From the NCBI GenBank assembly GCA_949130485.1, contig OX422190.1:3400281-3464280 (forward strand): a stretch of DNA of 64,000 nt, given 5' to 3'. A program made the position numbers and the translations under genes. Below, piece after piece: positions 3,590 to 64,000 of this stretch. The notes under the pieces are model-generated. The model ran no database searches, was not told where the DNA came from, and saw only the letters and a list, made by a program, of their open reading frames with translations. Position 1 is the first letter of the stretch. Each line of letters begins with the position of its first letter. Source of the stretch: Agelas oroides (lineage: Eukaryota > Porifera > Demospongiae > Agelasida > Agelasidae).

Positions 3590-6500
3590 GTAACTAATGA
3601 TGTGTGGGGGCGTGTCTGCTCACAATTATGCATTCTGGTGACCCGCCCTTTTGGAGCCAGCCTCCCTTTTGGAAGTCTGGTAATGAGACTATTGCTGTCC
3701 TGCCGGGTAGACCCTCGCAAAGCCAGACTCTCAGTGAGAGTCTGGCTTCATGAGACTAGACCCAGCCGCAGCTTAGGCCATTCCAAGTTGTACTTCTGTT
3801 TCTGGTTCTATGATTTCCCTGCTACTGTGTGTGCAGACTGTACATCAGCAACACAAGTAGCAATCAAAACATTTGCCAGTACAGACACACACATCACTGC
3901 ATAAGATACACCAAAATATTATTACAGTTCTTGAAAATGACACTACTTTTGCCCTTCTGCAAATGGGGTGTACCAAAGCAAGTAGAGTCAAGGCTGGAAA
4001 TACAAGAAAAACTCTTACCTCCAAAAAAGTCAACCATGAAGCTTTGGATTTCAGTGTGCACAGCTTCTGCACATGTGCATTATTCTGGGTTGCTCATAAA
4101 TTAGAATTGTCCAGAGGACCAGAAACAGATGTAAAACTTGGAGCGGCCTTACTTTCAGAGACAGAAAGCCTGCTGTCAAAAATATTGTGTTAGTTGAGAT
4201 GTTCCCTCCTACCAGGCTTCTTAATCGACTGCCAGAAACTTTCATTAGTGTCGTGAGCCATATGTTGCACCACAGCCTCAATCTTCATTCTTTACTGTCC
4301 CCACTGGAACATCTCAAGATCATGATGCTAACTAGCTTAGTAAACACAGGTCTTTCGATGGCAGATGTAACACTTTGCTAGCTCACATCACATCCACAAG
4401 GTAGCTCCACAGATCGATAATGCATTATGTAAACTGGGGAATTTCCCTACATCATCACATGCTGCTTACTGGGACAGCAATGGTATACTCCAGTCACCTT
4501 CCTTATGTGAAGGTGGAGCTGGCTCTCAGGACAGTTTGTAGACAGAGAGCTGTATAACTTCTCTAGTTGCAACAGTTGCCTCGTTCCCAGGCTTCTCCCC
4601 AACTCCTTACAAAAGCTGGGGAATAGCCTGCAAACGAGGCTAACTGAACTCCCAAACAATGACATAAGTGCAGTGGGCCTTTAGGACAAATGCGTTCACC
4701 ATAGTTGATTGCCCAAGAGCACAATCATACCGTAGATTGGAAAAAAGTTTGCTGTTAAAATAATTTCACGGTTGAGACCGACTTTGAAAATTCAACACGT
4801 GAATAAAAACATTTACACAGCGATGATCAATGTCCACGCACGTCCACACCTCCCGAGGTAAACATCAGATTGACAACTACTCCTGACAGCCACAGTGTTA
4901 CAGCCAGTGATACCTGACTCTCCTGACACCTGATAGTAGACTAAATGCTAGGAATGCTCCAGGCGCTCGTCCATATTGTAACCGTTGACTGCTAAAATAT
5001 TTCGCGGATTGAACGAACCCTGAAAATTTAGCACCACGAAAATTTTTTACGCAAATTATTTGTAACGTGAAAATTTCCTGATCTACGGCATTGAACTTAG
5101 CCAGTCAGAACAGGGAAAGCCAGATTGGCAAGTTTAACTGAATCAACAGTTTTTATTGTGTGGGCACAATCAACCTGAAATTGACAGTATTATGAGACTT
5201 TGAAGTTGCTTGAAATAGGAAATTGTGTTCTCTGAGATCTTGCATGATTGCAGAGTCCCTCCCTCATTGTTCACTGAGTGTGCTGATTGTGTGAAACTCC
5301 AGTTGTGGTTAACACAGTACATGTGCAGTATGAATTTATTGTGTTGAGTGATATTTACAATACATTGTATTGTGATGGTGACACAACATGTTATGTACTG
5401 ACTATTCCTGTCTCCACTTCAGGTCCTCCACTCACTGTGGACAACATCCTCAAATATATACGAGAGGTGAAGAACTTGAGGAAGGTGGGAGGGTTCTTGC
5501 TTAGTTACAGTAGTACCAAACTGGATGCCATCCAAAGGGAGTACAGTTCTGATTCAGATAGGCTACAAGCTGTAGTGCAGCAGTGGCTGGAGGGTGGAGG
5601 TCTCACACCATCATGGAGGTGGCTAGTCTGGTCACTAGACACAGCTGGTGATATCGTTGTGGCAGATCCCATTCGAGGATTTGCAGAACCACCACCAGGT
5701 GAGTCATCCTGAAGTTGGTGGGTAATGGTAAAGTTTACACACAGTTACCATAGATTGGTACAGTGGACCCTCGCTTATCCAATGGCAATGGTACCAGACC
5801 ATGGCCACATAGGCGTAGAAGATTTTTAGATTGGGGAGCACACATCGTAGCCAAGTGCATAAAACACAGTGGCTAGGTGGTCTGGAGGAATGCCCCCCAG
5901 AAAAATTTGTAAAAATGAGATGCTTCGCAATTGTTTCTTACCTGTAGTTTTTGAGGCACGGAATTCCTAATTGGCTACCTTTCCACTGATCGCAGATTTT
6001 GCAAAAAAATTAGCACACAAAACAGCTAGGGAGTCTGCGGCATACCCCTTGAGGTTGCTTCCTTTTTGGCGAGCAGGATTCCGATTCAGTACATGAGCAC
6101 ACAAAGATAAATCTAGTGCTAGTGATCTAGCTGCATGTATCTCTCGAAGCAAACTGTCATTTGCGTACTGAAGAAGGGGCCATTGAGTGAATTAGTCTCT
6201 TGCTTAGGCACCGTTTAGAGACACGAGAATGTAAAACAGCCCATAGTTGGTGCCGACAAGTGTGACTGCATGGCTGTATCAAATTAAGCTTAATTTCTTG
6301 ACTAATGGAAGGTTGGGTTCACTATCTAATAGACACGTGATACGGTAGTCTACATGCTAAGTGGGCGTGGCGCACATTGTTGAGGGGGCACATGCCCCCA
6401 GTTGTCCCTTGGTTCTGAAACCTATGTACAGCATCGATAAGTGAAATGGCCAAGATATGTGAATGGCTGGATAAAATATATCATGCAAATAGTGTCTATA

Positions 6501-9500: not shown

Positions 9501-12500
9501 GCCATGAGTTCGCAGATTTACAAGAAATATAACTGGCAGCGTGCTAGCGCTGAGCTAGCTACATGTATATGTACAGCTCGCGTAGACGGGCGCCGGGTGG
9601 AGCCAAGAGCACTACTGCATGCATTACGTCATTACGCGTTGCGGGGGAAAATAATATTGGCGGATTTTAATTTGGCGGTTTCAACCCAGACCGCCAAACC
9701 GCCAAATTTAATTCCCTGTCAAATTTTCCAGCTATACGGTAGTCTCCAGCTACTGGAGAAGTGCTTCCGTTGTCATGTGAGAAAATGTGTTGTGTAGCTC
9801 TTTCTTTTCATCTTGTTGGCCGATCACCATCATGGTTGTTCTGACTCTTGAGATGTTGTAGCCAAGCTTCTGCCATCTAGTTAGACTGGGGAGGTGGCGA
9901 ACACAGTGAAGGGATAACTGACAAGTGTTGGCACATGCAGTACACCCATGTTCCTAGTTGCTATGCAAGAACAGTGGTATGTACACCTAGCATAATAATG
10001 TAGGTACCCTCAACAGATTAATCTCTAGCCTTGTTCCCAGGCCTCCTCCATTTGTTAAATACTGTTCTGCTTCCATGTATTATTGTGAACATGAACAAAA
10101 GAGGGGAGCCATGGAAATGAGGCTATGAATGTCCTTAATAACCATACCTAAGGTCAACATACATACACACCACTAATTATCCATTTTGAGAACACTCCTT
10201 GCTGTTACTTCACTCTGTCTTCAGTCATAAATCAACTTACATGAATCAATTCTGTCCCAAGTGATTGTAAGAAAACTGGCATGTACACCTATCACAATAA
10301 CATATCATTACCACCATAGTACAAAGCTATACTGGAAAATATATCGAGTTTGTTGCTGTCTGTATTGTCTGTAGTGCGCATGCCAACGGTGATATTCTTT
10401 TCCGGTATAGCTTGGTACTATGGTGATAATGATTTTATCATACCAACCTTCGATTTCATTGCATGTTCAAACTCAGCACTTGTAGTACCTGATATGGAGC
10501 CTTATGTGACCTGTAGTACTGATACGGGTTTTCACGTGACTTGCAGTACCTGATACGGACTCTCACATGAGTAAAAAATACTGCTTTTTATAAACTATGT
10601 GCAACTGCAAGGCTTCCCCATTGACTCCCACACGTTCGCGTGAGTTAGACGTATGATATTGTACCTTAATTAATTTGCCAGATGCTCTCTACATGCATGT
10701 ACGTCAACACATACACAATACCTTTGAGAACACTCCTTGCTGTTACTCATTCAGACTCACGTCATAAATGAATTTGCGTAACAATTCTGTCTCACATGAT
10801 CTTTGTGTGACTATCCTGACTAGTACTCTTACAGTACACACTTTATGCAGCAGGACTACTGTCTCATTAGTGATTCATTAGAGGTGGGCATTAATTGAAT
10901 TATGTTTACTCAGAGATGCCTCTTCAGGACTACTGTCTCATTAGTTATCAGTGTGTTCTTTTATCATACATGTTAGTCTCGCGTGCGAGGGTCTGACTCC
11001 GAGACTACATACATGTATCATGTGTTGGGGCTAAGTTCTTAGATACATGTACCTGGGTTTCTCCCAATAGCTGTGACAAAGTGGTCATTGAAAATTGTAT
11101 TAATTGTGGCCAAGACCACATCAGAATGGGCAGCTAGAGTAAGAGTGTGTAACTCCATAAAATTTGAAACCGGGCAGAATTTTACCGCCAGTACTAAAAT
11201 TGGTAACACATACTGCACTTGCTGTGTAGACATAAGCCGTTGTTGCTAATGATACATGCTCTTACTCTTCCTATGTGCTCTTGCTGTGGCCTGACACATT
11301 GCACTGCATGGTGCACCATTGTAACTTGTCAGTGTACCGTGTGTTTAGTCTCATGCCCAGACCGCGTTCTTGATTTTGCCAAGCTGGAACTGGGAATGAG
11401 ACTACCATGCATCATGTCTTGGGGCCAAGTTCTTACTTAGATACATGTACCTGGGTTGCTGCCAATAGCTGTGATATAGTGGTCATTGAGAATTGTATTA
11501 ATAGTGGTCTGACACATTGCAGTATGACACACTAACCATGTAACAGGTTTTGAGTTTGTGTTTCCAACAGTTGTAAAATGTAACATTGTGTCTCTCCCTC
11601 AGATACAACCCTCAATGAACAAACTATTGGACCAATAATGGAGGCAGTAGGAGACTGGCGGCAGCTTGCAACTACTGCTTATCTTGATATCCCACGTGCC
11701 ATACGAGAGAGGATCACTGAACGTCACACAACTAATGAGGAGCAGACCCGTGCTGCTGGTGAGTGGTGGATCCACACATACCCATCTCCATCCTGGGACC
11801 GTCTTGCCAGGGCACTCTACCGTAGTGGACAGGATACAGCATTGGAGAAGATGGCACAGTACTTGCCAAAAGGTGTGTACATGGAGAGGATATTATACAC
11901 AGTAGTCCTTATTGTCTCTGTCAGCTCAGCAACCTCCTGTTTTCTGTTAGACTAGTGTAAGTACTCATGCCAGTCAGCATTGTTGTCACTGGGGTTAGTG
12001 GGTCATGAATTACTACTGAGTTCTTAAAGGATCCTGTTTGTATAAGACCTTTGTAGTGTCAAGTGGCTGTAACAGTGAAACATGTCCAGTTGCTTTAGGC
12101 TATAACCACTATATAGGATGCAGTTGCAATTTCAACTTGAGTCTTCACTCCAATACACAGAAGTGGGAGAGTGGCAAAAAATGGAGAAGGCCCGGGAATA
12201 CTCATCACATGAATGATGTCAGATGGGCACAAGGTGGACGTAGGGATGATGATGGCCGACTACACTTGATTGTGTGAACATCTGAGGTCCTGCCTAGTGG
12301 CAGAGTGCTTGATGAGGAAGTTTAGTGTGTCACTGAATGTGGACCATACCTCCCCTACGTTCACCTCATGTCCACCTGATGTCATTCATGTGGTCAGTGT
12401 TCCCAGACCTTTCTATTTTTCGCCACTCTTCCACTTCCATATACTACTGTGAACACAAACAGAAGAATAAAAACAAGGCAGGTCGGGGAAATGAGGTTTA

Positions 12501-24500: not shown

Positions 24501-27500
24501 AAGTTCTAGGGTTGTAGTTACACTTGAACGAAATCTTCTTAGTATTAGGTCTAACTGTAACTGAGATTAACATCAAAAAAGTACAGAAACAAGAAATAAA
24601 AAACATTAAAAATGTAAAAAGATGTAGGGATGGCATGCCAAAAAGTATACAAACAAGGTAGGGATGATAGCATAAAAGCAAAGGTCAACATAAAGGCAAT
24701 GCCCCATCCCTACATCTTTTTCATACTGCAGTTAGACAGCATGCTTGAAACCTAAACCTGCACCATCTGTGGAGTTAATAATGCTGTAAATGAGCACCAA
24801 CTACTTGAGTTTTTAAATACTACAGCACTTACTATATGACCAGTCCTGCAGCTCACTTCAGCTCAGTGTCTAGGTTGTATAAGCGGTCCGTATACAATAT
24901 TAAATGCCAACAAGGGTTCCACTGTTACTACAAATAGCATGTCAGCATCATAAGCTACCTGGTTGCTACATGCATAGCTTCCGACAAGGTACACATACAC
25001 CACATACCCCATGCTGCTAGACTACACTGCAATCTGGACCCCAGACCCTTCTTGCCCTTTCGAAGGGTTTGGAGTCCAGAACCCAGGCCATGTGGGAGGA
25101 GGAAAGTGGCCTGAGAACAAGGTTACAGCTATGCCCTTCAAGAACTGCCAGTAAGGTTGTTGTACGTTTTATAGAGACCTCCAATACACTGTCATAACTG
25201 CAGTGTGAAAAAGATGTAGGGATGGGGCATTGCCTTTATGTTGACCTTTGCTTTTGTGCTATCATCCCTACCTTGTTTGTATACTTTTTGGCATGCCATC
25301 CCTACATCTTTTTACATTTTTAATGTTTTTTATTTCTTTCCACAAAGGAATGACAACATGCAGTGATCGATAAGTGGATGCCAAGTTTTATCAGCCAAGA
25401 CATGCAGCATTTTGTATCTGCCAATATATCAATTCTAGTCCTCTAATTTAGAATCCAAGTTTGAATGATTCCCGTAAACAATTTGTGGATGGTAGAATCA
25501 ATTCTATCTATTTTGGGATGATCTACTTTAATCCAGCTTTTTTAACTGTACTTATATGAAGCACATTTTAAACCTGAATATTTATAATTTGTTGAGTTGG
25601 CAACACAAAAACAATCAAAGAGCTAAATCTCTGTAATTTGCTCAGAGCTCATAGTTTCACATGATTGCTCCTTCCAGCAGTGCAGCTGCCTGACACTTTC
25701 GACTGCTAAGTCAACTAAACCAATTCTGTGCTCTATTGCATGTCAATTACCCATATAGTTGCATAAGTTTAAAAGTTTATGGTTACTGCAAGGTGTTGAG
25801 TGTGGCCTAACTATTGCCACATGTTTATTGGGGCATGCCTGAGTGAGCTCCGCATGGGTATTGAGCTGGTGTGTCTGTTTGTGTCTGCATACAACAGGAT
25901 TCTGCCATTCCTCAACTTATGTGGGACAAACCAGATGCATTATGTGCATGAAACGTTTATGTAGCACATACACGTGTACAACACCATGAACTGCATGAGT
26001 GGAGGAGCAATCGCAACATAAGCATATTAAATAATTTGAGTGGGCATGTGTGAAGTTTTATCCATCCAGAAATTAAATTTCTGGCATTAGATTAGATCAT
26101 GCCTTGTAATGGTTTCAAACGTGCGAGATTTTGTCAAAACACAAATACAAAAGTAACTTATTGGTCTTCAGTTCTCAAATCTCAAATTCTTGTCAAAATG
26201 TGAGATTAACAGCTGTAGCAACAAGAAGCTGTTCTAAGACAAGAAAATGTAGGCAAGACATCTTCTAGGAGAAATAGCTAGCCCATAAATTTCCTACTTT
26301 GGCTTTTGCTGTAACAACTAAGAGGCTTCATTCCTGGCATTGCGCCAAATTGGATCAACCCAGAATATAAGCTTGCTCTAAGTTAGATCCACCCATTAAT
26401 TGCATTTCATGGGCTATGGATTGTCTGTTCTATTAGAATAAGTACCGGAATTTGTAAAAACCATTCTCACATTTTACGGAGATACCTGATGTAAGCTATT
26501 TGCTTTCACTATACTCTTGCGGCTAGTTTCCGTAGTGTACGTAGCTTTGTGTTGTCAATGGTTAAACTGCACTCATTTGGATTACTGTCATATTGATCAC
26601 TAGTTTTTCTCTGTATTTCTTAACTTCTTTCTCTCCACTCCCTCTTCACTCATTCTTTCTCCTCATTCACTCCTGGCCTCCCTTTTTATCTTGCAGTGAT
26701 CATGAGTGATGAAGAAGTTCAGGCAATTGTAGACCAAGCTCTAAAGTCAGGATCTATTGAACAGAGGAATATGCTTGCGGTAGTTGTCGGCATCGCAGGG
26801 TCTGGGAAAACATCGCTGATCTGTAGACTCTTCCGAGAAAAACTTCCAGATAGGTACACTAGCACAGGTATAGCAGAACAGTCCCTTCGTGGACTCATGC
26901 ACCACATTTCAACAAAGAAGTCTTGGGAGCGCCTCTCATCAGAGGAGATACTTCAGATCTTCGCTTCATTCCTTCAGGCTGGATTGTCTGAAGCTGACAT
27001 AGCCTCCCTGGCTAGGGAGCTCACAGAAGATGAGGAACCGAAACCTACCCAGCTCCCCTTGGAAAAAGAACTCTCTCTTCCCCAGCCTGGTACTCCTGAA
27101 TCAGAGCCTACTGGAACTCCTCCTTCACCTTCTCCTTCGCAGAAGAGCTATGCTAGGGAAACTATGATCAGTTTTGTCCGAAAAGTACAGGGTTCCAAGA
27201 AAGCTGTCCTCATTGAGCTCCTGCATATGATTGACACAGGAGGGCAGCCTGAATTTATGGAAATCATGCCTTCTTTGATCCACAACTCCAACTTCACACT
27301 GCTTGTCCTGAATCTTGACCAATCTCTTGATGATCCCCCTCACTTTGTTTTTTCTGAGAAGGATGAACCATTCAAGCGACCTCTTCCTTCTACACTTACC
27401 AACAGGCAGGTTATACATCAGCTTACTCGCACTTTGCGTGCAAAGCGATCTACACACAAAGGAAGTCAGCATTCCAAAGTCTCAGTTATTGGCACCCACC

Positions 27501-29107
27501 GGGACTGTGTGGAGAAGAAGGGTAAGCTTCCAGAAACCCTAAAATCTATGAATGCGGAGGTGGAGAGTATGTTTATGGAAGATGAATTGGTGAATGAGAT
27601 TTTTCCAGTTAATTTGAAGGAGCCAGATGACGATGATGAAAAGGTCTTAGAAGAGCTTCGTCAGTGCATCAGTAATACTGACATAGGGGTCAAAACCAAA
27701 ACTCCTTTCTCTTTTTTTATGTTTGAGCATGAAGCCATTAAGTACCAAAACTACCTACAGCAGAAGAAGGTCAGGGAAGTCATGATCTTGAGCTTTGAGG
27801 AATGTGTGCAGATTGGGGAAAGGTTGGAAATGAGCCGCGAGGTTGTTAAGGCAGCATTGATCTTCTTCCATCGCCACAACATATTCCTCTACTTCCAACA
27901 TATCCTTCCTAATGTAGTATTTCTGGCTCCGCAAGTGCCCCTCGACTTCGTCAATGCAATTGTAGCACTTGGTTACAAGGTGAGGTCTGGCGCCATTTCT
28001 ACACTTGCACCCAAGTACAAGCGCTTCTGCAAGCAAGGCATCATCACAAAAGAGATGCTGTGTGATGAGAGTTTGCAGCTATCTGATCACTTTGTTCCCG
28101 GTATATACGAGGCTGAGGATGCCATTAAGCTCTTCCTTCACATTCATGCAATAGCCCAACTGAGTAATGAAGAACCACTGGACAAGGACCAGCAGCCTCC
28201 CACTCCCTCCAGCACACCAGGGCAGAAGTTGTCAAGAGAGAGAGAATACCTAATGATGACTTTGCTTGATGACAAGCCTGAGAATGAAATTCAGAAACAT
28301 CTTCCTTCATCCTCCAAGGTTGCCCCACTAGTCATACACTTTAGCAGTTGCTGTGTTCCCAATGGCTGCTTTGGCAACACAATATCCTGTCTTATCTCCA
28401 CATATGAGTGGAAGGTCAGTCAAATGAAGAGGGTTCCAAAATGTCTTGCACACAATATCGTTACACTCAGTGGTCCCAAGCTTCCTGTTACAATAACTAT
28501 GGTGAACTGTACACGACACCTTGAGATCCACATCAATACTGACAAGGTTAAGGAAGAACATCTTGGTGATTTCTGCTCAAGCATACGCAAGACAATTTTT
28601 GAGGCAATTAAGGAGAAAGTTTTCAAATTAATGAGATTTGAAGATCTTCAGGTCAAGCCAGCATTTCTTTGCCCCTGTGACTGCAACCCATCCCATATAG
28701 TAACAATCTGCAGTGACTCTGAAATTGTTTGCAAGGACTCTTACATGGTTTGCAGTGACACAGATTCATCACAAGGTTGTTTGCAAGAGCAACACCTATT
28801 CTGGTTTCAAGATCAACTCAAGAACGTGGACCAGAAGCTGAAGCTGAAAGATTTGTTGGAAGAGCTAGTTCACATCTCGCACAAATGGTATTACCTTGGG
28901 ATACAACTAGGACTGGAAGGGAAGCTGGACAATATCAAATCTGACCACTCTGAGAAATCACAGCACTGCTTGAGTGAGATGCTAAGCACATGGCTGAAGA
29001 TTGATCCAAGAGCAACATGGAATACCTTGTGTGCTGCCCTCCACAGCGAGACTGTTGGTGAAAAGAAACTAGCTAGTGACTTGGAGGCCAAGTATACGCA
29101 AACATAG
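3550..29107 (+). CDS. Death-domain / Roc-like GTPase receptor-type gene, complete model of five exons
   Basis: Joining 3550-3589, 5423-5698, 11603-11872, 16802-17071 and 26697-29107 gives 3,267 bases, an open frame of 1,088 residues plus stop. All four introns are phase 1 with GT-AG ends. Order: short basic leader (1-13), Death-fold 1 (about 16-98), 2 (107-194) and 3 (197-284), Roc-like GTPase with P-loop GIAGSGKTS at 317-325, DTGGQPEF from 465 and THRD at 552-555, COR-like helical region (about 625-720), and a C-terminal Death domain (about 1000-1080). No signal peptide or membrane segment is evident, so it is probably cytosolic. Roc-COR GTPases act as nucleotide switches and Death domains as homotypic adaptors; a cell-death or innate-immune signalling role is inferred. 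A partial paralogue or allele begins at 52421. Extra exons in the long introns cannot be excluded. Confidence 0.8.
3590..5422 (+). other. Intron 1, gene A
   Basis: The intron begins GTAACT and ends CCACTTCAG. It contains a small hairpin near 3720-3760 built on AGCCAGACTCTC and its inverse, and a MITE-like inverted repeat at about 4574-4645. The stretch 4690-5120 differs by only about 2-3% from copy B. No coding exon was recognised. Confidence 0.6.
5423..5698 (+). CDS. Exon 2, gene A: Death domain 1
   Basis: The exon is 276 bases, phase 1 at both ends. It encodes one Death-fold unit: LTVDNILKYI helix, a conserved LDAIQ segment, RLQAVVQQWLEGG helix, then PSWRWLVWSL. The acceptor is CCACTTCAG and the donor GGTGAGT. 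Against copy B (54353-54634) there are about 14 replaced residues, two extra codons in B and 7 synonymous changes, mostly in the first half. Death domains mediate homotypic assembly; the partner is unknown. Confidence 0.85.
5761..6699. mobile_element. Pogo/Tigger-like non-autonomous DNA transposon, copy A
   Basis: The ends are CAGTGGACCCTCGCTTATCC and the inverse GGATAAGTGAGGTTCCACTG, each flanked by TA. That arrangement is typical of pogo/Tigger (Tc1-mariner) elements. No transposase frame is visible. Copy B has the same element at 54697-56179, enlarged by a second insertion, so it predates the duplication. Its interior contains a diverged CATAGGCGTAG-type repeat (about 5805-6425). Confidence 0.8.
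8201..8253. mobile_element. 53-bp mini-MITE with 8-bp target duplication, copy A only
   Basis: The insert opens GTAACCTCGTTCCCAGG and closes with CCTGGGAACGAGGCTA. CTTAATTA is duplicated on both sides (8193-8200 and 8254-8261). Copy B near 57687 has one CTTAATTA and no insert. It is only a pair of inverted ends with a short loop. Confidence 0.9.
8428..8790. other. Segment inverted between copies A and B (A orientation)
   Basis: Going right, this segment reads from the CCATCTTTGATTGAAACACC area to a GACGAGGACATGAG motif. Copy B at about 57870-58245 carries it reverse-complemented, preceded by an inverted extra copy of the GAGGACATGAGTCAAGGGC region. Collinearity resumes on both sides. Confidence 0.85.
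9120..9250. repeat. Inverted repeat, about 25-bp arms
   Basis: CCCCTCTTTGGTGAATATGG near 9123 pairs with its inverse near 9230, about 80 bp apart. Copy B at about 58585-58715 is nearly unchanged. Confidence 0.8.
9385..9720. repeat. TTGGCGG-bearing repeat with inverted ends
   Basis: TATTGGCGG...TTTAAATTTGGC at the left and several GCCAAA/TTTGGCGG motifs at the right suggest a MITE. A related end, CCAAATTTTCCGGCTATACG, recurs near 44910. Both copies of the duplication have it (58855-59190). Confidence 0.5.
10974..11008. mobile_element. 35-bp micro-insertion with 8-bp target duplication, copy A only
   Basis: The insert runs from TAGTCTCGCGTGCGAGG to CTCCGAGACTAC and is flanked by ATACATGT on both sides (10966-10973, 11009-11016). 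The matching site in copy B near 61010 lacks it. The ends resemble the TAGTCTCGTCCC family, so it looks like an extremely reduced hAT-type MITE. Confidence 0.8.
11603..11872 (+). CDS. Exon 3, gene A: Death domain 2
   Basis: The exon is 270 bases, phase 1 at both ends, acceptor CTCCCTCAG and donor GGTGTGT. It encodes GPIMEAVGDWRQLA, IRERITERH, AAGEWWIHTY and PSWDRLARAL, the expected helix pattern with the tryptophan-anchored fifth helix of Death domains. Copy B (61595-61864) differs at 22 bases. Of the altered codons 15 change the residue and only two are synonymous. The exon is exactly as long as exon 4, consistent with ancient exon duplication. Confidence 0.88.
12130..12490. mobile_element. 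Decayed foldback MITE, both copies
   Basis: Left ACATGAATGATGTCAGATGG and right CACCTGATGTCATTCATGTG are inverted arms of a palindromic element. The better-preserved relative is at 41762-42206. Copy B has it at about 62110-62490. Confidence 0.65.
12832..13742. mobile_element. MITE with TACCGTAAACTCTGGTTATT ends, copy A
   Basis: The left end TACCGTAAACTCTGGTTATT and right end ATCAACCAGAGTCTACAGTA are inverted repeats. Copy B at about 62750-63293 has the same element without the nested insertion. A third diverged fragment may lie at 17640-17815. Confidence 0.7.
12983..13358. mobile_element. Foldback hAT-like MITE nested in another MITE, copy A only
   Basis: It starts TTAGTCTCGTCCCCAGACAC and closes GTGTCTGGGGACGAGAATA, with inverted arms of about 75 bp that include GCGCGCCCTGCGGCCTTGTC-type sequence. 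AGTAAAAC is duplicated at 12975-12982 and 13359-13366. Copy B near 62890 has an empty site. Confidence 0.9.
14529..15824. repeat. Tandem duplication, two units of about 650 bp
   Basis: Unit 1 is about 14529-15180 and unit 2 about 15187-15824. Both begin GTGGCAGGTACGATAACTA and end near TTTTATGCTT. Each unit contains a hairpin whose arms read GCATGATGACATCATTTTAT and the inverse, around 15007-15077 and 15672-15738. The window ends before the equivalent part of copy B. Confidence 0.88.
16802..17071 (+). CDS. Exon 4, gene A: Death domain 3
   Basis: The exon is 270 bases, phase 1 at both ends, acceptor CCCACTCAG and donor GGTATGT. It reads LTTENLMEVV, ENRWEDLGNKL, KIRALYQSD, RMEALVNHYV and RSWKRVASALEV, a Death-fold signature (W-x2-LG and RSW-x5-AL). 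Its length equals exon 3, and both exons are symmetric in phase, so they could be gained or lost without breaking the frame. Copy B would carry it beyond 64000. Confidence 0.85.
18140..18538. mobile_element. MITE with CCGTAATCTCCC ends and TATT target duplication
   Basis: CCGTAATCTCCC at the left matches the inverse GGGAGATTACGG at the right, and TATT is present on both sides (18136-18139, 18539-18542). Length is 399 bp and no coding frame is seen. The superfamily is not assigned. Confidence 0.75.
19112..19694. mobile_element. Pogo-like non-autonomous element with CAGTCGAACCTCC ends
   Basis: CAGTCGAACCTCCGAACAAA at the left and GGAGGTTCGACTG at the right are inverted repeats, flanked by TA. 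It is the reverse-oriented relative of 54819-55405. There is no transposase. Confidence 0.85.
20130..20870 (+). other. Degenerate coding-like sequence of unknown origin
   Basis: Two short open stretches (131 and 93 codons) occur in sequence that looks partly coding, but neither has a recognisable start context, splice signals or family motif. It may be the remains of a transposon protein or of a host exon. I assign no function. Confidence 0.25.
21706..22075. mobile_element. Foldback MITE, about 370 bp
   Basis: Inverted arms of about 140 bp: ATGACGTAATCATACTGACT and GGTCAACTCGATTTACACAA on the left are mirrored on the right. A related half-element lies in both copies of the duplication near 12522-12830 and 62505-62748. 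Confidence 0.8.
23596..25340. mobile_element. Non-autonomous element with internal inverted repeats, copy 1
   Basis: The left part opens CAGAGAGTCGGTAGACTCTC. An inverted pair (about 24590-24715 and 25206-25340) carries GATGTAGGGATGGCATGCCA and its complement. A second copy of the whole arrangement is at 33836-35450. Copy 1 has an extra palindromic insertion at about 24137-24182 (AGTCTCGCAAGCCACACC and its inverse). No coding frame is supported. Confidence 0.8.
26697..29107 (+). CDS. Exon 5, gene A: Roc-like GTPase, COR-like region and C-terminal Death domain
   Basis: One 2,411-base exon encodes residues 286-1088 and the stop. It shows the P-loop GIAGSGKTS, a proline- and glutamate-rich insert of about 40 residues, the switch motif DTGGQPEF, a hydrophobic strand FTLLVLNLD, and THRD in place of the usual NKxD. 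A helical region with VFLAPQVPLDFVNAIV follows, resembling COR segments next to Roc domains. The C-terminus has KWYYLGIQLGL, LSEMLSTWL and ATWNTLCAAL, a Death domain. The acceptor AG abuts TGATCATG, and the phase-1 base from exon 4 completes the codon. An ATG at 26703 could serve an alternative short transcript. Confidence 0.92.
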
Positions 29108-39482: not shown

Positions 39483-39608
39483 GTGACTACTTCCTCACAA
39501 GAGGCTCACACAAACACTCTCTCACGGAAGACCTGGTCTTATAGTTTCCCTCCCTGACCATTGTCTCAAGAACTAAACATTACATTAGTCAAGTCTACTG
39601 TTCCATTC

Positions 39609-39700: not shown

Positions 39701-40568
39701 AGGGGGTGGGGGAGGAAGAAGTGTAGGCCTGCCCTGAATGTGCTCGAAGAGATTCTTATTTTTCTCTGCCGCAATTGTTCAAAATTTTACCCATTTTGCT
39801 CATTACTGCTCACACTTTAGTGCAGAGACCATGACATGTGCCTTTTCATTGTGTGGTTGTCCTGGCTGGCAACATGAGAATGCGCCTTTTCCTCATGACG
39901 GTGGAGTGGTTCCTTTCGTTTTCTTGCGAGTTCCGAGTACCTTAGGGCATTCAATCAGCTAAGAATGGATGCTTCACTGAAACTAGTATCACAACTTCCC
40001 TAACATCTCAGAAAGGCCATGTGTGCAGTTATGAGTGATTATGCAAATCTCTAGGCAACGCCTGTTTTGCCTGATTTCTTGCCTATTTTTCTGGCATTAT
40101 GCTTGAGCTTACTTATTCCACGCACTACTAATTGCATCCAACGGTCGTCGCTGTATTGCCCGAGCCTTATCCAGCCGTCGTTGATGTCTGTGGGCTTTCC
40201 AAAGAAATAAACGCAGCCCTTTGAATAGTAGCCGCCCTCTAATAGTAGCCACACAAAAGCAACCAGCGAAAAAAAAATAGTAGCCGCAGCGTCTGATCAA
40301 AGAACTATGGTATGTAAAAGCTACAAAGCTGTAACAGGACGCCGACCTTAATTAGTTGCTTAACTCCACTGTACATTTGTGTATGTGTGGGGAAGATTGT
40401 CAGAATGCTTTAACTAGTTGGTATGTGTACAAAATCTGAGCAAGATTCTAATGTGCTGCCTGGGTAACTTGCATAGCGATACTGTCTCCTTTGAGGGGGT
40501 TTTGTGACTCTCGTGAGAAATTAGTATCTGGATTCTAAGGGAAACCCAAGCTGAATCTCTGGACTGGA

Positions 40569-40776
40569 GACTTGAGCTTCAATAAAGAAGACTTGAGCTT
40601 CAATAAAGAAGACTTGAGCTTCAATAAAGAAGACTTGAGCTTCAATAAAGAAGACTTGAGCTTCAATAAAGAAGACTTGAGCTTCAATAAAGAAGACTTG
40701 AGCTTCAATAAAGAAGACTTGAGCTTCAATAAAGAAGACTTGAGCTTCAATAAAGAAGACTTGAGCTTCAATAAAG
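40569..40776. repeat. 21-bp minisatellite, about ten units
   Basis: The unit GACTTGAGCTTCAATAAAGA plus A is repeated almost without change. As 21 is a multiple of three, open frames run through it on both strands; these are by-products and not genes. Confidence 0.97.
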
Positions 40777-41465: not shown

Positions 41466-49582
<8,117 letters not shown>

Positions 49583-52420: not shown

Positions 52421-52460
52421 ATGCTGAGTACATTGAGAGGAAAGAAGAAGACAGTGGAAG
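52421..52460 (+). CDS. Exon 1, gene B
   Basis: Same leader peptide as 3550-3589, with GTG instead of GTT for valine 12. The donor is GGTAACT. Confidence 0.65.
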
Positions 52461-55400
52461 GTAACTAATTAATGATGTGGTGGGGGCGTGTCTGCTCACA
52501 ATAAACATTCTGGTAACCCGTCCTCTTGGAGCCAGCCTCCCCTTTTTCAAGCAAGTCTGGTAATGAAACCATTGCTGTCCTGCCGGCTAGACCCTCACAA
52601 CGCCAGAATCTCAGTCACATGAAGAGTGTGTGAGAGTCTGGCTTCGTGAGACTAGACCCAGTGTAGCTTAGTCTCACATAGCCAGACTCTCCCTGCGAGT
52701 CTGGCTACGTGAGTCAAAGTGTAGCTTGGGCCATTCCTAGTTGTACTTCTGTTTCTGGTTCTATGATTTCCCTGCTACTATGTGTGCAGACTGTACATCA
52801 GCAACACAAGTAGCAATCAAAACGTAAGTATCACAGCATAAGATACACCAAAACAGTTCTTGAAAATGACACTACTTTCGCCCTTCTACAAATGGGGCGT
52901 ATCAAAGCAAGTAGAGTCAAGGCTGGAAATACAAGAAAAACTCTTACCTGCATGAAGGTCAACCATGAAGCTTTGGATTTCAGTGTGCACAGCTTCTGCA
53001 CATGCACATTATTCTGGGTTGCAGGCAGAGGATCAGAAGCAGAAGTACAACTGGAGAGGCCTTACTTTCAGAGACGGAAATCCTAATGTCAAAAATATTG
53101 TGTTAGTTGGAGGTGTTCCCTCCTACCAGGCTTCTTAATCGACAGTAGCTGAAGATCAACCAGAAACTCGTAATTTCATTCTTTAGTGTCATGAGCCGTA
53201 TGTTGCACCACACCCTCAATATCCATCCTTTACTGTCCTGACTGTGAGATCTCAGGATCATGATGCTAACTAGCTTAGTAAACACAGGTCATTTGATGGC
53301 AGATGCAACACGTTCTAGCTCACATCACAACCACAAGGTAGCTCTACAGATCAATAGTGCATTATGTAAACTGGGGAATTCCCTACATCATCATACACCG
53401 CTTACTGGGACAGCAATGGTATACTCCAGTCACCTTCCTTGTGTGAAGGTGGAGCTGGCTCTCAGGACAGTTTGTAGACAGAGAGCTGTAAAACTTCTCT
53501 TGGTGCAACAGTTGCCTCATTCCCAGGCTCCTCCCCAACTCCTTACAAAGCTGGGGAGGAGCCTGCAAACGAGGCTAACTGAACTCCCAAACAATGATAT
53601 AAGTGCAGTGGGCCTTTAGGACAAATGTGTTCACCATAGTTGATTGCCCAAGAGCACAATCATACCGTAGATTGGAAAAAAGTTTGCTGTTAAAATAATT
53701 TCACGGTTGAGACCGACTTTGAAAATTCAACACACGAATAAAAACATTTACACAGCGATGATCAATGTCCACGCACGTCCACACCTCCCGAGGTAAATAT
53801 CAGATTGACAACTACTCCTGACAGCCACAGTGTTACAGCCAGTGATACCTGACTCTCCCGATACCTGATAGTAGACTAAATGCTAGGAATGCTCCAGGCG
53901 CTCGTCCATATTGTAACCGTCGACCGCTAAAATATTTCGCGTATTGAACGAACCCTGAAAATTTAGCACCACGAAAATTTTTTACGCTAATTATTTGTAA
54001 CGTGAAAATTTCCTGATCTACGGCATTGAACTTAGCTAGTCAGAACAGGGAAAGCCAGATTGGCAAGTTTAACTGAATCAACAGTTTTATTGTGTGGGCA
54101 CAATCAACCTGAAATTGACAGTATTATGAGACTTTGAAGTTGCTTGAAATAGGAAATTGTGTTCTCTGAGATCTTGCATGATTGCAGAGTCCCTCCCTCA
54201 TTGTTCACTGAGTGTGCTGATTGTGTGAAACTCCAGTTGTGGTTAACACAGTACATGTGTAGTATAAATTGTGTTGAGTGATATTTACAATACATTGTAT
54301 TGTCGTGGTGACACAAAATGTTATGTACTGACTATTCCTGCCTCCACTTCAGGTCCTCCACTCACTGTGGACAATGTCCTCAAATATATACGCGGGGTGA
54401 AGAATTTGAGGGAGGTGGGAAAGTGGTTGCTTAGTATTGGGAGTGATACCAAACAGGTGGATGCAATACAGAGGAAGTACAGTTCTGATAAAGATAGAGT
54501 ACAAGCTGTAGTGCAGCAGTGGCTGGAGGGTGGAGGTCGCACACTATCATGGAGGTGGCTAGTCTGGTCACTAGACACAGCTGGTGATATCGTTGTGGCA
54601 GATCCCATTCGAGGATTTACAGAACCACCACCAGGTGAGCCACCCTGAAGTTGGTGGGTAATTGTAAAGTTTGCACACAGTTACCATAAATTGGTACAGT
54701 GGACCCTCATTTGTCCGCCCGCAGTGGTACAAGACCATGGCCAGATAGGAGTAGGAAGATTTTTAGATTGAAGGGGGGCACACATTAGGACCATAGCCAG
54801 GTGGATAAGAACGCAGTACAGTCAAACCTCCCATAACGGACCCTCCGAGAAGAGGACAACCTCTCTACAGCGGACAAATGCTGTGTTACGGATTGAAATT
54901 ACTATAGTACTAATACATAAATAACCTCCGAGAGGCAGACGCTTCTTGATTCCGGACATCGGACAAGATACGAACTCCCAACGTGACTTTTCAATACAAA
55001 CTTGCTTCTAAATAACGGACACCCAGGAAACCACACCTATAAAATTGTAGCATACCCGCACATTTTGAGGACAATCAGGAATTTAACCACATGCGATTAT
55101 AGATAAACACGCATGCATACGCATGAACGCACATAGACAGCTAAACTTCAATATTAAACTTCAGTAAATAATTCGTCGTTGTTAAGAAGTTTTTTAAGAT
55201 TTGTAAAACTTCAAGATTTTCAGCTACAACTTGGCTAATCATAATCACTGTTTTTCAACATTCAATATATGCTCACAATCATGTATTTTACCCATATATT
55301 ACATTATTTGAGGATTATACAATTGAACCTCCGAGATAGGGACAACCTCCGAATAAAGGACAAACGACCCATTCCCAAAGTGTCCTTTGTTTGGAGGTTC

Positions 55401-58400: not shown

Positions 58401-61400
58401 TCTTCACTTGCTACCTAGCAAGCTAGGAAAAACCAAAGTATCATGAGAACAAATGCTTTACTGCTATGTAAACAAAAGTGGGCCAGGCCGGTCCCCTTTG
58501 AGTGTCTTGCAGTGAGTGTTTGCTACTAACAAAGGTGGGTGCTCTTTCACGGATGAATTGGTAAACACTTGAAAGAACACTCACCCCCCTCTTTGGTGAA
58601 TATGGGCACTGTTTCATGACACTACAGTACTCTGCATCATGTGAATTACACACGACTGTAGCACCAGGAGCTTATGAGTGCCGCGAAGAGTGCCCATATT
58701 CACCAAAGAGGGGTCCTGGTAGCACACAGTTGGCCTGCTTATATGCATGTTAACCATGCCTATACTCAAGTCTGTTAGACGAAGCCACTGTACATAACCA
58801 TGAAAACGATGAGTGTTGTGTGAGGCCGCCATGTCTAGAAGATCATATACCGGAAGTATTGGCGGTCTTTAAATTTGGCAGTGGCGCCTCGCAGCACATT
58901 ACGTCTTGCATGCGCGTTTATCAGGGAGTGTTGCTGTCCTCTCGTTTGAGGTACTTGAACTAAGCCATGAGTTCGCAGATTTACAAGAAATATAACTGGC
59001 AGTGTGCTAGCGCTGAGCTAGCTACATGTATATGTACAGCTCGCGTAGACGGGCACCGGGTGGAGCCAAGAGCACTACTGCATGCATTACGTCATTACGT
59101 GTTGCGGGGGAAAATAATATTGGCGGATTTTAATTTGGCGGTTTCAACCCAGACCACCAAACCGCCAAATTTAATTCCCTGTCAAATTTTCCGGCTATGC
59201 GGTAGTCTCCAGCTACTGGAGAAGTGCCTCCATTGTCACGTGGGAAAATGTGTTGTGTAGCTCTTTCTTTTCATCTTGTTGGCCGATCACCATCATGGTT
59301 GTTCTGACTCTTGAGATGTTGTAGCCAAGCTTCTGCCATCTAGTTAGACTGGGGAGGTGGTGAACACAGTGAAGGGATAACTGACAAGTGTTGGCACATG
59401 CAGTACACCCATGTTCCTAGTTGCTGTGTAAGAAAAGTGGTATGTACACCTAGCATAATAATGTAGGTACCCTCAACAGATTAATCTCTAGCCTTGTTCC
59501 CAGGCCTCCTCCATTTCTTAAATACTGTTCTGCTTCCATGTATTATTGTGAACATGAACAAAAGAGGGGAGCCATGGAAATGAGGCTATGAATGTCCTTA
59601 ATAACCGTACCTAAGGTCAACATACATACACACCACTAATTGGGGCGAGCCTGAGCGAGCCCCACACTAGCGTGACTGCATTGCGGAAGTGTGTGTGTAT
59701 GTATGTATCTATGGACCGACCACTTACCGGAAATTTTAAATCTGCGCATTCAAATATTTCACAAGGATCGATATCGCGCGAAGCATGTGAAGGCCAGTGG
59801 AGGGCTACTGCAGCGTCGGGGACCCGGAGCGAAAACGACTGAAGTTGAAGCACACGTGGCACTGGTTTATGCTTCTACCGACGACGGCAGGCCGCTCACA
59901 GGCAGTACAAATTTAATACGGACGGTGGTTGACGGGTCGCTTCAGGTACTTGCTGCGGGCATGTATAAACGACACTCATAAACGCCAGAAATTTAGCTCA
60001 TGATTTCGGTGTAAAGCGTAGTCCATGCATGTGTAAGCCACGTTAGCTGCCCTGGTTGGAGAAATGGCTGGAATATGTGCTCTGGTGAGGACTTATAGCT
60101 ACTTGTACTATAAATTTGGCTTAAACAGCCGACAGTGACAAATCCTGCTGTGTGCCATGACAAAGTAGTAAATCAGCAGTTTGCTGCTTGCTCAGGCTCG
60201 CCCCATGATGATGAATCATCTCACTAGTTATCCATTTTGAGAACACTCCTTGCTGTTACTTCACTCTGTCTTTAGTCATAAATCAACTTACATGAATCAA
60301 TTCTGTCTCAAGTGATTGTAAGAAAACTGGTATGTACACCTATCACAATAATATATCATTACCACCATAGTACAAAGCTATACTGGAAAATATATCGAGT
60401 TTGTTGCTGTCTGTATTGTCTGTAGTGCGCATACCAACGGTGATATTCTTTTCCGGTATAGCTTGGTACTATGGTGATAATCATTTTATCATACCAACCT
60501 TCGATTTCATTGTATGTTCAAACTCAGCACTTGTAGTACCTGATATGGAGTCTTATGTGACCTGTAGTACTGATACGGGTTTTCACGTGACTTGCAATAC
60601 CTGATATGGATTCTCACGTGAGTAAAAAATACGGCTTTTTATAAACTATGTGCAACTGCAAGGCTTCCCCATTGACTCCCACACGTTTGCGTGAGTTAGA
60701 CGTATGATAATGTACCTTAATTAATTTGCCAGATGCTCTCTACATGCATGTACGTCAACACATACACAATACCTTTGAGAACACTCCTTGCTGTTACTCA
60801 TTCAGGCTCACGTCATAAATGAATTTGCGTAACAATTCTGTCTCACATGATCTTTGTGTGACTACCCTGACTAGTACTCTTACAGTACACACTGTATACA
60901 GCAGGACTACTGTCTCATTAGTGATTCATTAGAGGTGGGCATTAATTGAATTATGTTTACTCAGAGATGCCTCTTCATTCACTCATTATCAGTGTATTCT
61001 TTTATCACACCTGTATCATGTCTTGGGGCTAAGTTCTTAGATACATGTACCTGGGTTTCTCCCAATAGCTGTGACAAAGTGGTCATTGAGAATTGTATTA
61101 ATTGTGGCCAAGACCACATCAGAATGGGCAGCTAGAGTAAGAGTGTGTAACTCCATAAAATTTGAAACCGGGCAGAATTTTACCGCCAGTACTAAAATTA
61201 GTAACACATACTGCACTTGCTGTGTAGACATAAGCCGTTGTTGCTAATGATACATGCTCTTACTCTTCCTATGTGCTCTTGCTGTGGCCTGACACACTGC
61301 ACTGCATGGTGGACAATTCTCAACTGTCAGTGTATTCTTGTTTAGTCTCATGCCCAGACCCTGTTCTTGATTTTGCCAAGCTGGAACTGGGAATGAGACT

Positions 61401-64000
61401 ACCATGCATCATGTCTTGGGGCCAAGTTCTTACTTAGATACATGTACCTGGGTTGCTCCCAATAGCTGTGATATAGTGGTCATTGAGAATTGTATTAATT
61501 GTGGCCAAGACCACATCACAGTATGACACACTAACCATGTAACAGGTTTTGAGTTTGTGTTTCCAATAGTTGTAACATTGTGTCTCTCCCTCAGATACAA
61601 CCCTTACTGAAGAAAATATTGGACCAATAATGGAGGCAGTAGGAGACTGGCGGCGGCTTGCAATTAGTGCTTATTTTGGTATCCCAGACGCCATACAAGA
61701 GAGGATCACTGAACGTCACACAACTACTGAGGAGCAGACCCGTGCTGCTGGTGAGTGGTGGATCCACACATACCATTCTCCATCCTGGGACCGTCTTGCC
61801 AAGGCACTCTACTATAGTGGACAGGATAGAGCGTTGGAGAAGATGGCACAGTACTTGCCAAAAGGTGTGTACATGGAGAGGATATTATACCCAGTAGTCC
61901 TTATTGTCTCTGTCAGCTCAACAACCTCCTGTTTTCTGTTAGACTAGTGCAAGTACACATGCCAGTCAGCACTGTTGTCACTGGGATTAGTGGGTCATGA
62001 ATTACTACTGAGTTGATCCTGTTTGTATAAGACCATTGTAGTGTCAAGTGGCTGTAACAGTGAAACATGTCCACTTGCTTTAGGCTATAACCACTATAGG
62101 ATGCAGTTGTAATTTCAACTTGAGTCTTCACTCCAATACACAGAAGTGGGAGAGTGGCAAAAAATGGAGAAGGCCTGGGAACACCCATCACATGAATGAT
62201 GTCAGATGGGCCCGAGGTGGACGTAGGGATGATGATGGCCGACTACACTTGATTGTGTGAACATATGAGCTCCTGCCTAGTGGCGGAGTGCTTGATGAGG
62301 AAGTTTAGTGTGTTACTGAATGTGGACCCTACCTCCCCTACCTCCCCTACGTTCACCTCACGCCCATTTGATGTTATTCATGTGGTCAGTGTTCCCAGAC
62401 CTTTCTATTTTTCGCCACTCTTCCGCTTCCATATATTATTGTGAACACAAACAGAAGAATAAAAACAAGGCAGGTCTGGGAATAAGGCTTAGGAAGAATA
62501 GTTGTGGAGGTTGGAAGCTAGTAGTTAGTGGTACACACAAGATACTAATTATAGTGCTACATATAATGACACAGTGCCATGATCCCATAACAGCCCATAG
62601 TGGAAGGTGAACTCAGTTTACAAAAGCAGCCCTTGTTTGTTTTGAATTAAACTCACTCAGTGGATACTGCCAGGTGAGTTCTAAATAGATGGCTACATTG
62701 TATGACATTTTATGAGGTACAAAAGTTACTATGGACATTCCCAAGGAATTACCATAAATTCTGGTTATTAAGCGCACCTTGATAATTGGCACATATTATT
62801 AGGCGTATTCGTCCTTCCCGGTACATGGCATCATTTATTAAGCGCTTGTGCATTAAATAGAGTACACAATGGCGGTAATAGAAACACCGACTAAAAACTA
62901 TGAAAAGCCATAGCATCATGAGCACACAGCACACTCGATGGTCATTCTGAAGTGAACCAAAGAAGAGCTAAACAGGTTTTCTTCCGCTACTGGCTAACAC
63001 AAGCTAGGAAACCACACCCTTCGCAGACTACGAGACTAAAAGTGTGGAGCCCCTTGAATACATAATGGCACTGCTAACTACGATATTTTTGAGGAGTCTT
63101 TCTGATTTTACGTTGATATTCGCCAGGTGAGCGTGTGGAACTATCTTCTGCACAGCGCCAGTGTGCAGCGTATCATGCTAATACCTGTTGGGCATGGCTT
63201 TAATTGCATCCCTTGTTTAGTGCATATCCTCTATTAGGCGCATGTTTCCTTACCACTTACGCTCATAAGTGCATGCGCTTATTAACCAGAGTTCAAAAAT
63301 GAGGGCTGTTTTGTAGCTTGAGTTCACCCTTCACTATGGTCCACTATGGTAGCTTGTATGTTTTCCTAGCACTACTTGCTACCTTGCATGTACCACTAAA
63401 TACTAGCTTCCAACCTTCTCTAGGAGAACAGTGCCTTGTACACACTGTGCATACGTCATGGGAGAAGTCTGGGTGTGAGGCTAGAGAACTTGTATCCTTT
63501 TACTGAATGGCAGGTATTGTGGTTAGTCTCATTCCCAGGCCTTCCCCACCTCCAGTTTTTGATCACTTTCAGTATGCAAGAAAAGGTGGGAGAAGGCCCA
63601 TCACATGGTAAGAATAACCCAGGCCTTCTTCCTCCATTACTGTATATTGTGAGCGATCAAAAACTGGAAGCACTAGGAGCAAAGCTACTTGAGGTTGTGT
63701 TGGAAGAAAATGCTGTGGTACTGTTATTACGCAACAATGTTAGCACATGTATTGCAAAAGTGGCACATTTTATGATACATAGCAGGTCACAATTTGTTCC
63801 ATAATCTGACATGTGTGTGGTATTGACCAACACGTGTCCTGTGCAGTGGGTGACTTCGCATAACATGCGCTTTTTATTTATGGAGATGTGGTGCATTGAT
63901 TGTACAACGTACGCACTAATCATATACAACAAGGTACAAGGCCGATCTTGTGAAGTATAGTTACTGTACAAGGCCGAGGGTACAAGACTGAGGGTAATGT
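52421..64000 (+). CDS. Death-domain GTPase gene B, 5' part (continues beyond window)
   Basis: Three exons, 52421-52460, 54353-54634 and 61595-61864, join in phase 1 and parallel exons 1-3 of gene A. They encode the leader and the first two Death-fold domains. The third Death domain and the GTPase exon would lie past 64000. No disabling change is seen in these exons. The replaced residues are concentrated in the Death domains, so if both copies are real loci they may bind different partners. Confidence 0.75.
52461..54352 (+). other. Intron 1, gene B
   Basis: It is collinear with 3590-5422. It has an extra palindromic insert at about 52670-52719 and a MITE-like inverted pair at about 53514-53577. 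No exon was recognised. Confidence 0.6.
52670..52719. mobile_element. 50-bp palindromic insertion, copy B only
   Basis: AGTCTCACATAGCCAGACTC and its near-inverse form a hairpin. TGTAGCTT is repeated on both sides (ending 52669 and 52727). Copy A near 3770 has a single, mutated target and no insert. Confidence 0.7.
54353..54634 (+). CDS. Exon 2, gene B: Death domain 1
   Basis: 282 bases, two codons longer than its copy-A partner, phase kept. It reads VLKYIRGVKNLREVGKWLL, QVDAIQRKYSSDKDRVQAVV and then the same WLEGGG and SWRWLVWSL core. The differences lie mainly in the first half, while the last 45 codons have three changes. Confidence 0.85.
54697..56179. mobile_element. Pogo/Tigger-like element with nested insertion, copy B
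   Basis: It has the same ends as 5761-6699 (CAGTGGACCCTCATTTGTCC and GGATAAGTGAGGTTCCACTG). It is larger because 54819-55405 inserted into it after the copies separated. Confidence 0.75.
54819..55405. mobile_element. Pogo-like element with CAGTCAAACCTCC ends, copy B only
   Basis: It is the reverse-oriented relative of 19112-19694. The ends are CAGTCAAACCTCC and GGAGGTTCGACTG, flanked by TA. It is missing from copy A, so it is a recent insertion by comparison. Confidence 0.85.
57870..58245. other. Segment inverted relative to copy A
   Basis: The reverse complement of about 8428-8790. An inverted duplicate of GAGGACATGAGTCAAGGGCT flank sequence and two direct copies of CGCAAGACTATGAACAGCAG lie at its left edge, marking the rearrangement junction. 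Confidence 0.85.
59642..60221. mobile_element. 580-bp insertion with GGGGCGAGCCTGAG inverted motifs, copy B only
   Basis: It starts GGGGCGAGCCTGAG and near its right end has the inverse CTCAGGCTCGCCCC, followed by about 17 further bases. The flanks CACTAATT and CACTAGTT look like an 8-bp target duplication with one change. Copy A at about 10170 has one CACTAATT. A 96-codon open stretch at 59691-59981 matches nothing I recognise. Confidence 0.75.
61595..61864 (+). CDS. Exon 3, gene B: Death domain 2
   Basis: 270 bases, phase 1 at both ends. The core GPIMEAVGDWRRLA, ERITERHTT, AAGEWWIHTY and PSWDRLAKAL is intact. Fifteen residues differ from the copy-A exon, including arginine to aspartate and arginine to tyrosine. 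Confidence 0.88.
61865..64000 (+). other. Intron 3, gene B (partial)
   Basis: It matches 11873-14461. It has the decayed foldback MITE (about 62110-62490) and the CTCTGGTTATTAAGCGC element (about 62750-63293) with an empty site where copy A has 12983-13358. The last 550 bases are almost identical to copy A. Confidence 0.65.

Follow-up and report, generated by a model that had tools for sequence, protein, structure and literature searches.

Fast-evolving codons in the tandem Death-domain exons of the sponge Agelas oroides

Death domains are conserved connectors of cell-death and immune signalling. In a tandemly arranged family of the sponge Agelas oroides, a minority of the Death-domain codons changes far above the neutral rate, while the core of the domain is conserved. 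The family is represented in the window, a stretch of 64,000 nucleotides (G000:C8:3400281-3464280) from a genome of 259 Mb in 141 contigs, by units A and B; a third unit, Z, located upstream of A, and the rest of B were recovered from the neighbouring contig sequence. The original prediction, made from the window, held that exons 2 and 3 of genes A and B (here DDa and DDb of units A and B) diverge faster than their introns, mainly at amino-acid sites, through diversifying selection or through gene conversion from more distant paralogues. Site-specific diversifying selection on the Death domains is very likely, as indicated by unit Z together with other clusters of the genome, by codon site models and by independent alignment columns; the conversion part of the proposal is not sustained. 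The Death-domain exons of the window are as follows.

5423..5698, + strand: unit A DDa (exon 2), phase 1-1; AG acceptor at 5421-5422 and GT donor at 5699; homologues present; Death-like by alignment only
11603..11872, + strand: unit A DDb (exon 3), Death domain, phase 1-1; splice sites; Pfam Death 24.0 bits
16802..17071, + strand: unit A DDc, third Death domain, phase 1-1; splice sites; Pfam Death 26.5 bits; copies in Z and B
54353..54634, + strand: unit B DDa (exon 2), two codons longer than in A
61595..61864, + strand: unit B DDb (exon 3), Death domain; Pfam Death 23.0 bits

Fast and conserved codons

The site models M0, M1a, M2a, M7, M8 and M8a were implemented, with an M0 log-likelihood (lnL) of -1374.04 as compared with -1374.16 from IQ-TREE, and columns with more than 50% gaps were removed from the three cluster sets (c16-22 DDb, C2 DDb and c16-22 DDa). 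The best-sampled set comprises the DDb exons of the c16-22 cluster (contig C8, 1.6-2.3 Mb; loci L006-L008, L029-L033 and L044). Over its 13 exons and 87 codons, omega, the ratio of nonsynonymous to synonymous rates (dN/dS), is 2.37 under M0, M8 places 18% of the sites at omega 12.9, and twice the log-likelihood difference (2dL) between M7 and M8 amounts to 168.3; the same comparison gives 20.9 for C2 DDb and 72.1 for c16-22 DDa. For the five copies Z, A, B, D and E, M7-M8 p values of 0.037, 0.0044 and 0.0155 were obtained for DDa, DDb and DDc, respectively, and a 2dL of 27.9 for the three exons concatenated. Z, A and B by themselves yield a site class with omega above 1 (M8a-M8 2dL 29.7), and the M8a-M8 comparison gives 27.6 for the five copies and 156.8 for the 13-copy DDb set. 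For M1a-M2a the observed values are likewise 27.6 and 156.8, which none of the simulated nulls attained, their maxima being 5.25 (n=20) and 5.03 (n=29). Five sub-segments analysed with their own trees, chosen to limit the effect of recombination, are all significant, three from DDb (p 1.1e-6 to 4.9e-13) and two from DDa (2.7e-12 and 1.4e-5). Runs on a star tree were given no weight, as a wrong topology may inflate them.

The fast columns recur in other copies. Column entropies were taken from sets that exclude A and B, which for DDb are 13 c16-22 exons, 7 C2 exons and 53 database proteins, and for DDa two sets of 8 and 46 members. The DDb columns at which A and B differ have higher entropy in all three other sets (p 0.00025, 0.00005 and 0.00005, by a test that uses no tree), and the corresponding DDa columns in both of theirs (p 0.031 and 0.00005). 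When the columns are divided by entropy, the nonsynonymous to synonymous ratio among Z, A and B is 4.2, 2.7 and 2.9 for DDb and 1.7 and 1.6 for DDa in the top quartile, as against 0.83-0.99 and 0.39-0.60 in the remaining columns, the three pairs summed in these ratios not being independent of each other. The database sets include proteins of the same contig, some matched to unit Z and locus E, and are therefore not wholly independent of Z. In the database proteins, translated intron beyond the DDb exon has column entropies of up to 1.7, compared with up to 3.4 for the variable columns of the exon, and several core columns of DDb are invariant across the 53 copies.

The invariant core bears on relaxed constraint or pseudogenes as an explanation. 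A loss of constraint would account for an exon-wide dN/dS near 1, and of the 48 DDb-like sequences matched in the genome, 3 contain one stop codon, none of which was used. Nevertheless, all exons used are open, with an AG and a GT in phase no more than 57 bases from where the matches end, omega is well above 1 at the fast sites, and the GTPase exon downstream of the Death domains has an omega of 0.22 [0.16-0.30] between Z and B, so that this module is under purifying selection. We regard relaxed constraint as very unlikely. The two LIM exons next to the Death-domain exons show 0-1 replacement in 91 codons. CpG hypermutation was also considered as a cause and rejected, the rate of non-CpG differences being 0.099-0.123 in Death-domain exons and 0.052-0.075 in their flanks.

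Position and codon spectrum of the fast sites

Fourteen codons of c16-22 DDb have a posterior above 0.9 (19, 20, 23, 24, 29, 32, 33, 36, 46, 64, 67, 68, 71 and 72), and 13 of them lie in three segments, each spaced as a single helix face (p 0.025, 0.0036 and 0.014). Searches against solved structures with the DDb family alone or with one single sequence gave chance-level matches only, and the unit A GTPase exon gave no match. A nine-sequence Death-domain profile of the family has its best match in FADD (E 0.0016 and up), with THO complex subunit 1, COP9 subunit 4, RIPK1 and PIDD as weaker matches behind it. In the profile alignment, every fast c16-22 DDb site except 46 maps onto a FADD position; we take these to be R113, R114, R117, Q118, D123, I126, D127 and E130, followed by H160, G163, A164, S167 and C168, presumably located in helices 2, 3 and 5, with a presumed role of several residues in Fas binding.

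Binding to partners or antagonists is probably the cause of the selection. As in FADD, the helix faces that carry the fast codons would be those by which Death domains bind one another, and selection may change these codons so as to alter the choice of partner or to evade antagonists. In a rival reading, no pathogen would be involved, and the fast sites would diverge because more than 100 Death domains in a single genome have to pair correctly and avoid cross-pairing. Insulation of this kind, which we consider possible though doubtful, agrees with the mapping of the fast DDb sites onto FADD, with the purifying selection on the Z/B GTPase module and with the size of the repertoire, at least 150 Death-domain exons in the genome scoring above the Pfam cut-off (150 of 870 candidates scored). 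Insulation should slow down after duplication, yet pairs with nearly identical introns already differ in their exons (intron 4/292, exon 11%). The setting would be an innate-immune or recognition repertoire; an immune role, suggested by the type of family, has in our estimate about an even chance.

The codon spectrum of the fast sites raises another alternative, in which a targeted mutation process diversifies particular codons. In c16-22 DDb, the per-base difference is 0.31-0.56 at fast codons and ~0.045 elsewhere, the fast codons vary mainly among A, G and T, and serine is encoded by AGT at fast codons (24/24) and by TCN elsewhere (51/51); in addition, some codons differ between A and B at two or three bases. 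The excess of A-T plus G-T differences, which are about two to three times commoner at fast codons in all six sets, could stem from amino-acid selection. Other sets show a weaker depletion of C, neither C2 DDb nor c16-22 DDa shows the serine contrast, and pooled divergence at the fourfold sites of codons left unchanged is near the intron level (see below). A targeted process is improbable, and the spectrum may reflect either amino-acid selection or a mutational signature. An adenine-only diversifier was considered and is unsupported, the fast codons varying among A, G and T.

Exon and intron divergence and exchange between units

The exon counts of the original prediction were reproduced closely between A and B. 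Exon 3 differs at 21 of 269 bases (22 in the prediction), with 15 codons replaced and 2 purely silent, and exon 2 at 26 of 277 aligned bases and by two inserted codons, with 14 codons replaced (16 when the five-copy alignment is used) and 7 purely silent; the second LIM exon (LIM2) is indeed identical, with 0 of 144 bases different. The claim that nearby introns differ by 0-4% agrees with stretches at ~0.3% (positions 1-1400, LIM2 included) and 2.6-3.0% (upstream of exon 2), but not with others, since divergence is 3.9-5.1% around exon 3, 6.6% at 6640-8200 and 12-14% over the 100-150 bases that follow exon 2; the mean is 5.9% over 15,742 aligned intron bases, with windows ranging from 0 to well above 10%. 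By the Nei-Gojobori method (NG86), dN/dS is 0.76 for exon 2 and 1.59 for exon 3 (0.70 and 1.58 when codons were aligned and sites counted in a slightly different way), and 1.01, not significantly above 1, for both together. A ratio at or below 1 in these exons had been named in the original prediction as an outcome that contradicts it; exon 2 falls under this value, and exon 3 does not. Among the Z/A/B pairs, the three exons have ratios of 0.61-1.75, none significantly above 1 by codon bootstrap. The contrast between exons and introns is real on average and not extreme for A and B, and because of the range of the introns and the nonsignificant pairwise ratios this pair alone does not establish selection. 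With unit Z and the rest of the family added, the excess goes beyond chance.

Replicates were drawn from 16 further stretches of the genome with family members, in addition to L006-L008 and L019-L020; pair counts omit one DDc that is truncated (c1950) as well as exons lacking a cluster partner (c7475; DDc of c2245). Averages were taken over the pairs with two alignable flanks, which are 6 of 21 for C2 DDb, 1 of 1 for D/E DDb, 1 of 3, 3 of 3 and 3 of 3 for DDa, DDb and DDc of Z/A/B, 1 of 28 for c16-22 DDa, 18 of 78 for c16-22 DDb, and 1 of 1 twice for a pair at 7.7 Mb of C8; the D/E comparison, one pair per exon, was dropped for DDa, for DDc and for DDx, a Death domain past the GTPase module. 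Nonsynonymous divergence (dN) exceeds that of the introns in 34 of these 35 pairs, which are not independent. This includes all 18 pairs of c16-22 DDb, with mean values of 0.131 for dN, 0.067 for synonymous divergence (dS) and 0.044 for introns. In DDa of the 7.7-Mb pair, dN is 0.272 and dS 0.274, and the flanks differ by 9.2% and 0.7%. Among disjoint pairs, the exon exceeds the intron in 17 of 19 when pairs are formed by lowest intron divergence; as this choice is biased, the pairing was repeated by lowest exon divergence (17 of 20) and at random (15 of 19 in each of three pairings), and a looser flank limit gave 15 of 20. Pooled divergence is 0.099-0.118 at nonsynonymous sites, 0.093-0.114 at synonymous sites (NG86) and 0.040-0.074 in introns, and fourfold sites in unchanged codons, at 0.059-0.077, are close to the introns.

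Several of these results weigh against selection as the source of the contrast. The pooled NG86 dS also lies above the introns, dN exceeds dS in only 8 of 19 disjoint pairs (Wilcoxon p 1.0), and the D/E pair runs in the reverse direction in DDb and DDx. Among 172 intron windows of 270 bases between A and B, 12.8%, 22.7% and 7.6% equal or exceed the divergence of DDa, DDb and DDc, respectively, although the upper tail of these windows is inflated by poorly aligned stretches. Over whole exons, pairwise dN/dS is near 1, and between A and B it falls below 1 in DDa and in DDc; the ratios of exon 2 and of both exons together are held down by a conserved core, with which the small number of very fast sites is averaged. 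Site models may overstate selection where genes exchange sequence, and the helix-face segments were picked after the sites were known, with the periodicity present in one of three sets.

Exchange is itself apparent in the alignment of Z, A and B, in which 1,354 singleton sites form 552 runs (895 expected), the longest of 29 (7.6 expected), and 0 of 2,000 shuffles were as extreme. Along the units, shared bases form a mosaic, and the clustering makes exchange between the units likely; regional differences in rate could contribute. Conversion or unequal exchange thus probably homogenises the sequence that flanks the Death-domain exons in the tandem units. The GTPase exon has a dS of 0.25 between Z and B, compared with 0.055-0.075 for introns, and its fourfold differences climb from 4/49 in the first 100 codons to 10/22 in the last part. 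An exon-wide silent effect was set aside, since this rise towards the 3' end makes a mosaic the simpler reading.

Conversion from more distant paralogues, by which differing stretches of A or B would have been imported, draws on the same strong clustering of singleton patterns and on the concentration of the exon 2 differences in its 5' part. However, Z, A and B are the three best matches in the genome for the DDa and DDb queries, and the next best copies among the candidates scored are 71% (DDa) and 60% (DDb) identical. Moreover, 13 of 55 replaced codons (6/16, 4/15 and 3/24) match neither Z nor D/E and the matches of the others are scattered, and imported stretches would bring silent changes, while the pooled fourfold sites in unchanged codons remain near the intron level. 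We therefore consider this origin improbable.

The explanation that we prefer as a whole, and consider likely, is a combination of selected Death-domain codons with flanks homogenised by exchange, in a recognition use. Selection would add amino-acid changes to the Death domains, and exchange between units would keep the LIM end and large parts of the introns alike, so that the exons look faster than the introns. As a tentative extension, the Death domains may form the variable part of the system that carries specificity, in which a barcode on helices 2, 3 and 5 sets assembly with partners, antagonists or foreign copies and exchange keeps the rest uniform; the A/G/T codon spectrum of one cluster may hint at a dedicated diversifier.

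Gene layout, domain identity and known systems

Units Z, A and B are spaced at 45-50 kb and share the order LIM1, LIM2, DDa, DDb, DDc and ROC-type GTPase exon. Copy A covers positions 1-14470 of the window and copy B 49325-64000, with main blocks that are 89-97% identical by self-comparison. The remaining exons of the window are given below.

104..250, + strand: unit A LIM2, closing the coding sequence of the upstream LIM gene and bearing its stop; no difference from unit B across 144 nt; C-terminus ...GLPTRTTSL-stop; 5' boundary approximate
26697..29107, + strand: unit A, single exon encoding a ROC-type GTPase module and, at its C-terminal end, a Death domain; Ras, Roc and Death matches; phase-1 acceptor
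48253..48381, + strand: unit B LIM1 exon of the LIM gene; Pfam LIM 33.1 bits; copies in three units; boundaries approximate
49436..49582, + strand: unit B LIM2, closing the coding sequence of the LIM gene and bearing its stop, from copy comparison; 5' boundary approximate

LIM2 ends in a stop codon and is taken as the end of a separate upstream gene, which, judged from this stop and its position, would lie outside the Death-domain gene. The analysed Death-domain exons have phase 1-1 splice borders, and the GTPase exon of A, with its phase-1 acceptor, can join them in frame; judged by phase, order and strand, one mRNA is predicted to comprise DDa, DDb, DDc and the GTPase exon. An additional Death domain follows the GTPase module, or forms its end, in A, Z, D and E, and in B none was found after the module in the stretch examined. 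In DNA, the GTPase module of Z matches that of B at 90%, whereas the module of A has ~25% protein identity to them, although the Death exons of the three units are 73-84% identical. The nearest paralogue of the A module lies on contig C10 (80% identical, 95 matches; best 56 of 901 candidates scored), and unit A looks as if its 3' GTPase module had been swapped relative to its neighbours. We also note that DDx (in unit Z at C8:3385599-3385907) is 80-84% identical between Z and D/E (loci L020 and L019), while the GTPase modules lying before it are only 25-30% identical.

The divergence of the A module also bears on the assembly. Alleles stacked as tandem copies could give main A/B blocks as similar as those observed, but there are three tandem copies rather than two, unit A has a different GTPase module (~25% identity) from Z and B, and the pattern recurs in other clusters; an artefact of this kind is hardly credible.

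The gathering cut-off of the Pfam Death family (PF00531, 22.6 bits) is exceeded by DDb of A and B and by DDc of A. The DDa exons of A, B and Z have no Pfam Death match, and a related DDa reaches 19.2 bits, under the cut-off. The GTPase exon of A passes the Ras cut-off (24.6 bits; cut-off 21.6), misses that of Roc (25.0 bits; cut-off 27), contains the sequence DTGGQPEF and carries a C-terminal Death domain at 25.0 bits. The module of Z matches COR-A (E 9e-7, 29.3 bits) under its cut-off of 35.3, and the Pfam scan of the unit A exon gave no COR match. TRADD-N had no Pfam match in the GTPase modules scanned, the stretches from DDc to the module being outside the scan, and neither NACHT nor leucine-rich repeats (LRRs), the hallmarks of NLR proteins, were found in the translated exons scanned.

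Other features of the window include three tandem arrays, at 46247-47167 (period ~81 bases, copies 98-99% alike), at 40568-40776 (21-base units, a seven-residue peptide repeat on translation, open in several frames) and at 44997-45343 (~63-base units, open in several frames). Dispersed direct and inverted repeats that are 82-99% alike, probably a mobile element, are located at 23594-24794, 25189-25338, 33834-34912 and 35306-35456, and both strands of an inverted repeat at 37430-37760 encode the same peptide stretch.

If the selection holds, about a fifth of the codons of one Death domain (c16-22 DDb) change at ~13 times the neutral rate, and a connector, not just a sensor, can host conflict or self/non-self recognition. 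The list of fast codons names concrete residues for binding work, and the tandem units and clusters serve as natural replicates. Literature searches on hypervariable or positively selected Death domains, sponge allorecognition, and sponge Death domains or ROCO proteins, judged mostly from titles and the openings of abstracts, turned up no account of the pattern.

The FADD Death domain resembles the family as its best solved-structure match; FADD is a conserved adaptor, and the positions aligned to it are hypervariable in Agelas. In the sponge Amphimedon, the TRADD-N expansions of the NCOA6 clade form a large lineage-specific family whose proteins begin with one to three Death-like domains (Kaur et al. 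2021, PMC8195603). They are like the Agelas units in their leading Death-like domains, in a variable downstream part and in an argument from entropy for diversification. This argument concerns TRADD-N rather than Death domains, the relevant sections contain no codon test (PMC8195603), and Pfam finds no TRADD-N in the Agelas stretches scanned. Brown-algal LRR-ROCO genes show positive selection on the binding face by PAML site models and share with the Agelas units a ROC-type GTPase after repeated exons of the same phase, the variable module there being an LRR in 72-bp phase-2 exons and here a whole Death domain in phase 1-1 (PMC11378527). The repeats of Podospora HNWD and other fungal NLR proteins likewise combine concerted evolution with diversifying selection at positions of the interaction surface; these are WD40, ANK or TPR repeats, in contrast to separate Death-domain exons in tandem genes (PMC4986451). 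Conotoxin genes have introns conserved within a superfamily and coding sites reported as positively selected, and encode secreted venom peptides, as opposed to intracellular signalling domains (PMC3862624). Regimes comparable to that of the Agelas Death domains are known for the LRR exons of algal ROCO genes (PMC11378527) and for fungal NLR repeats (PMC4986451).

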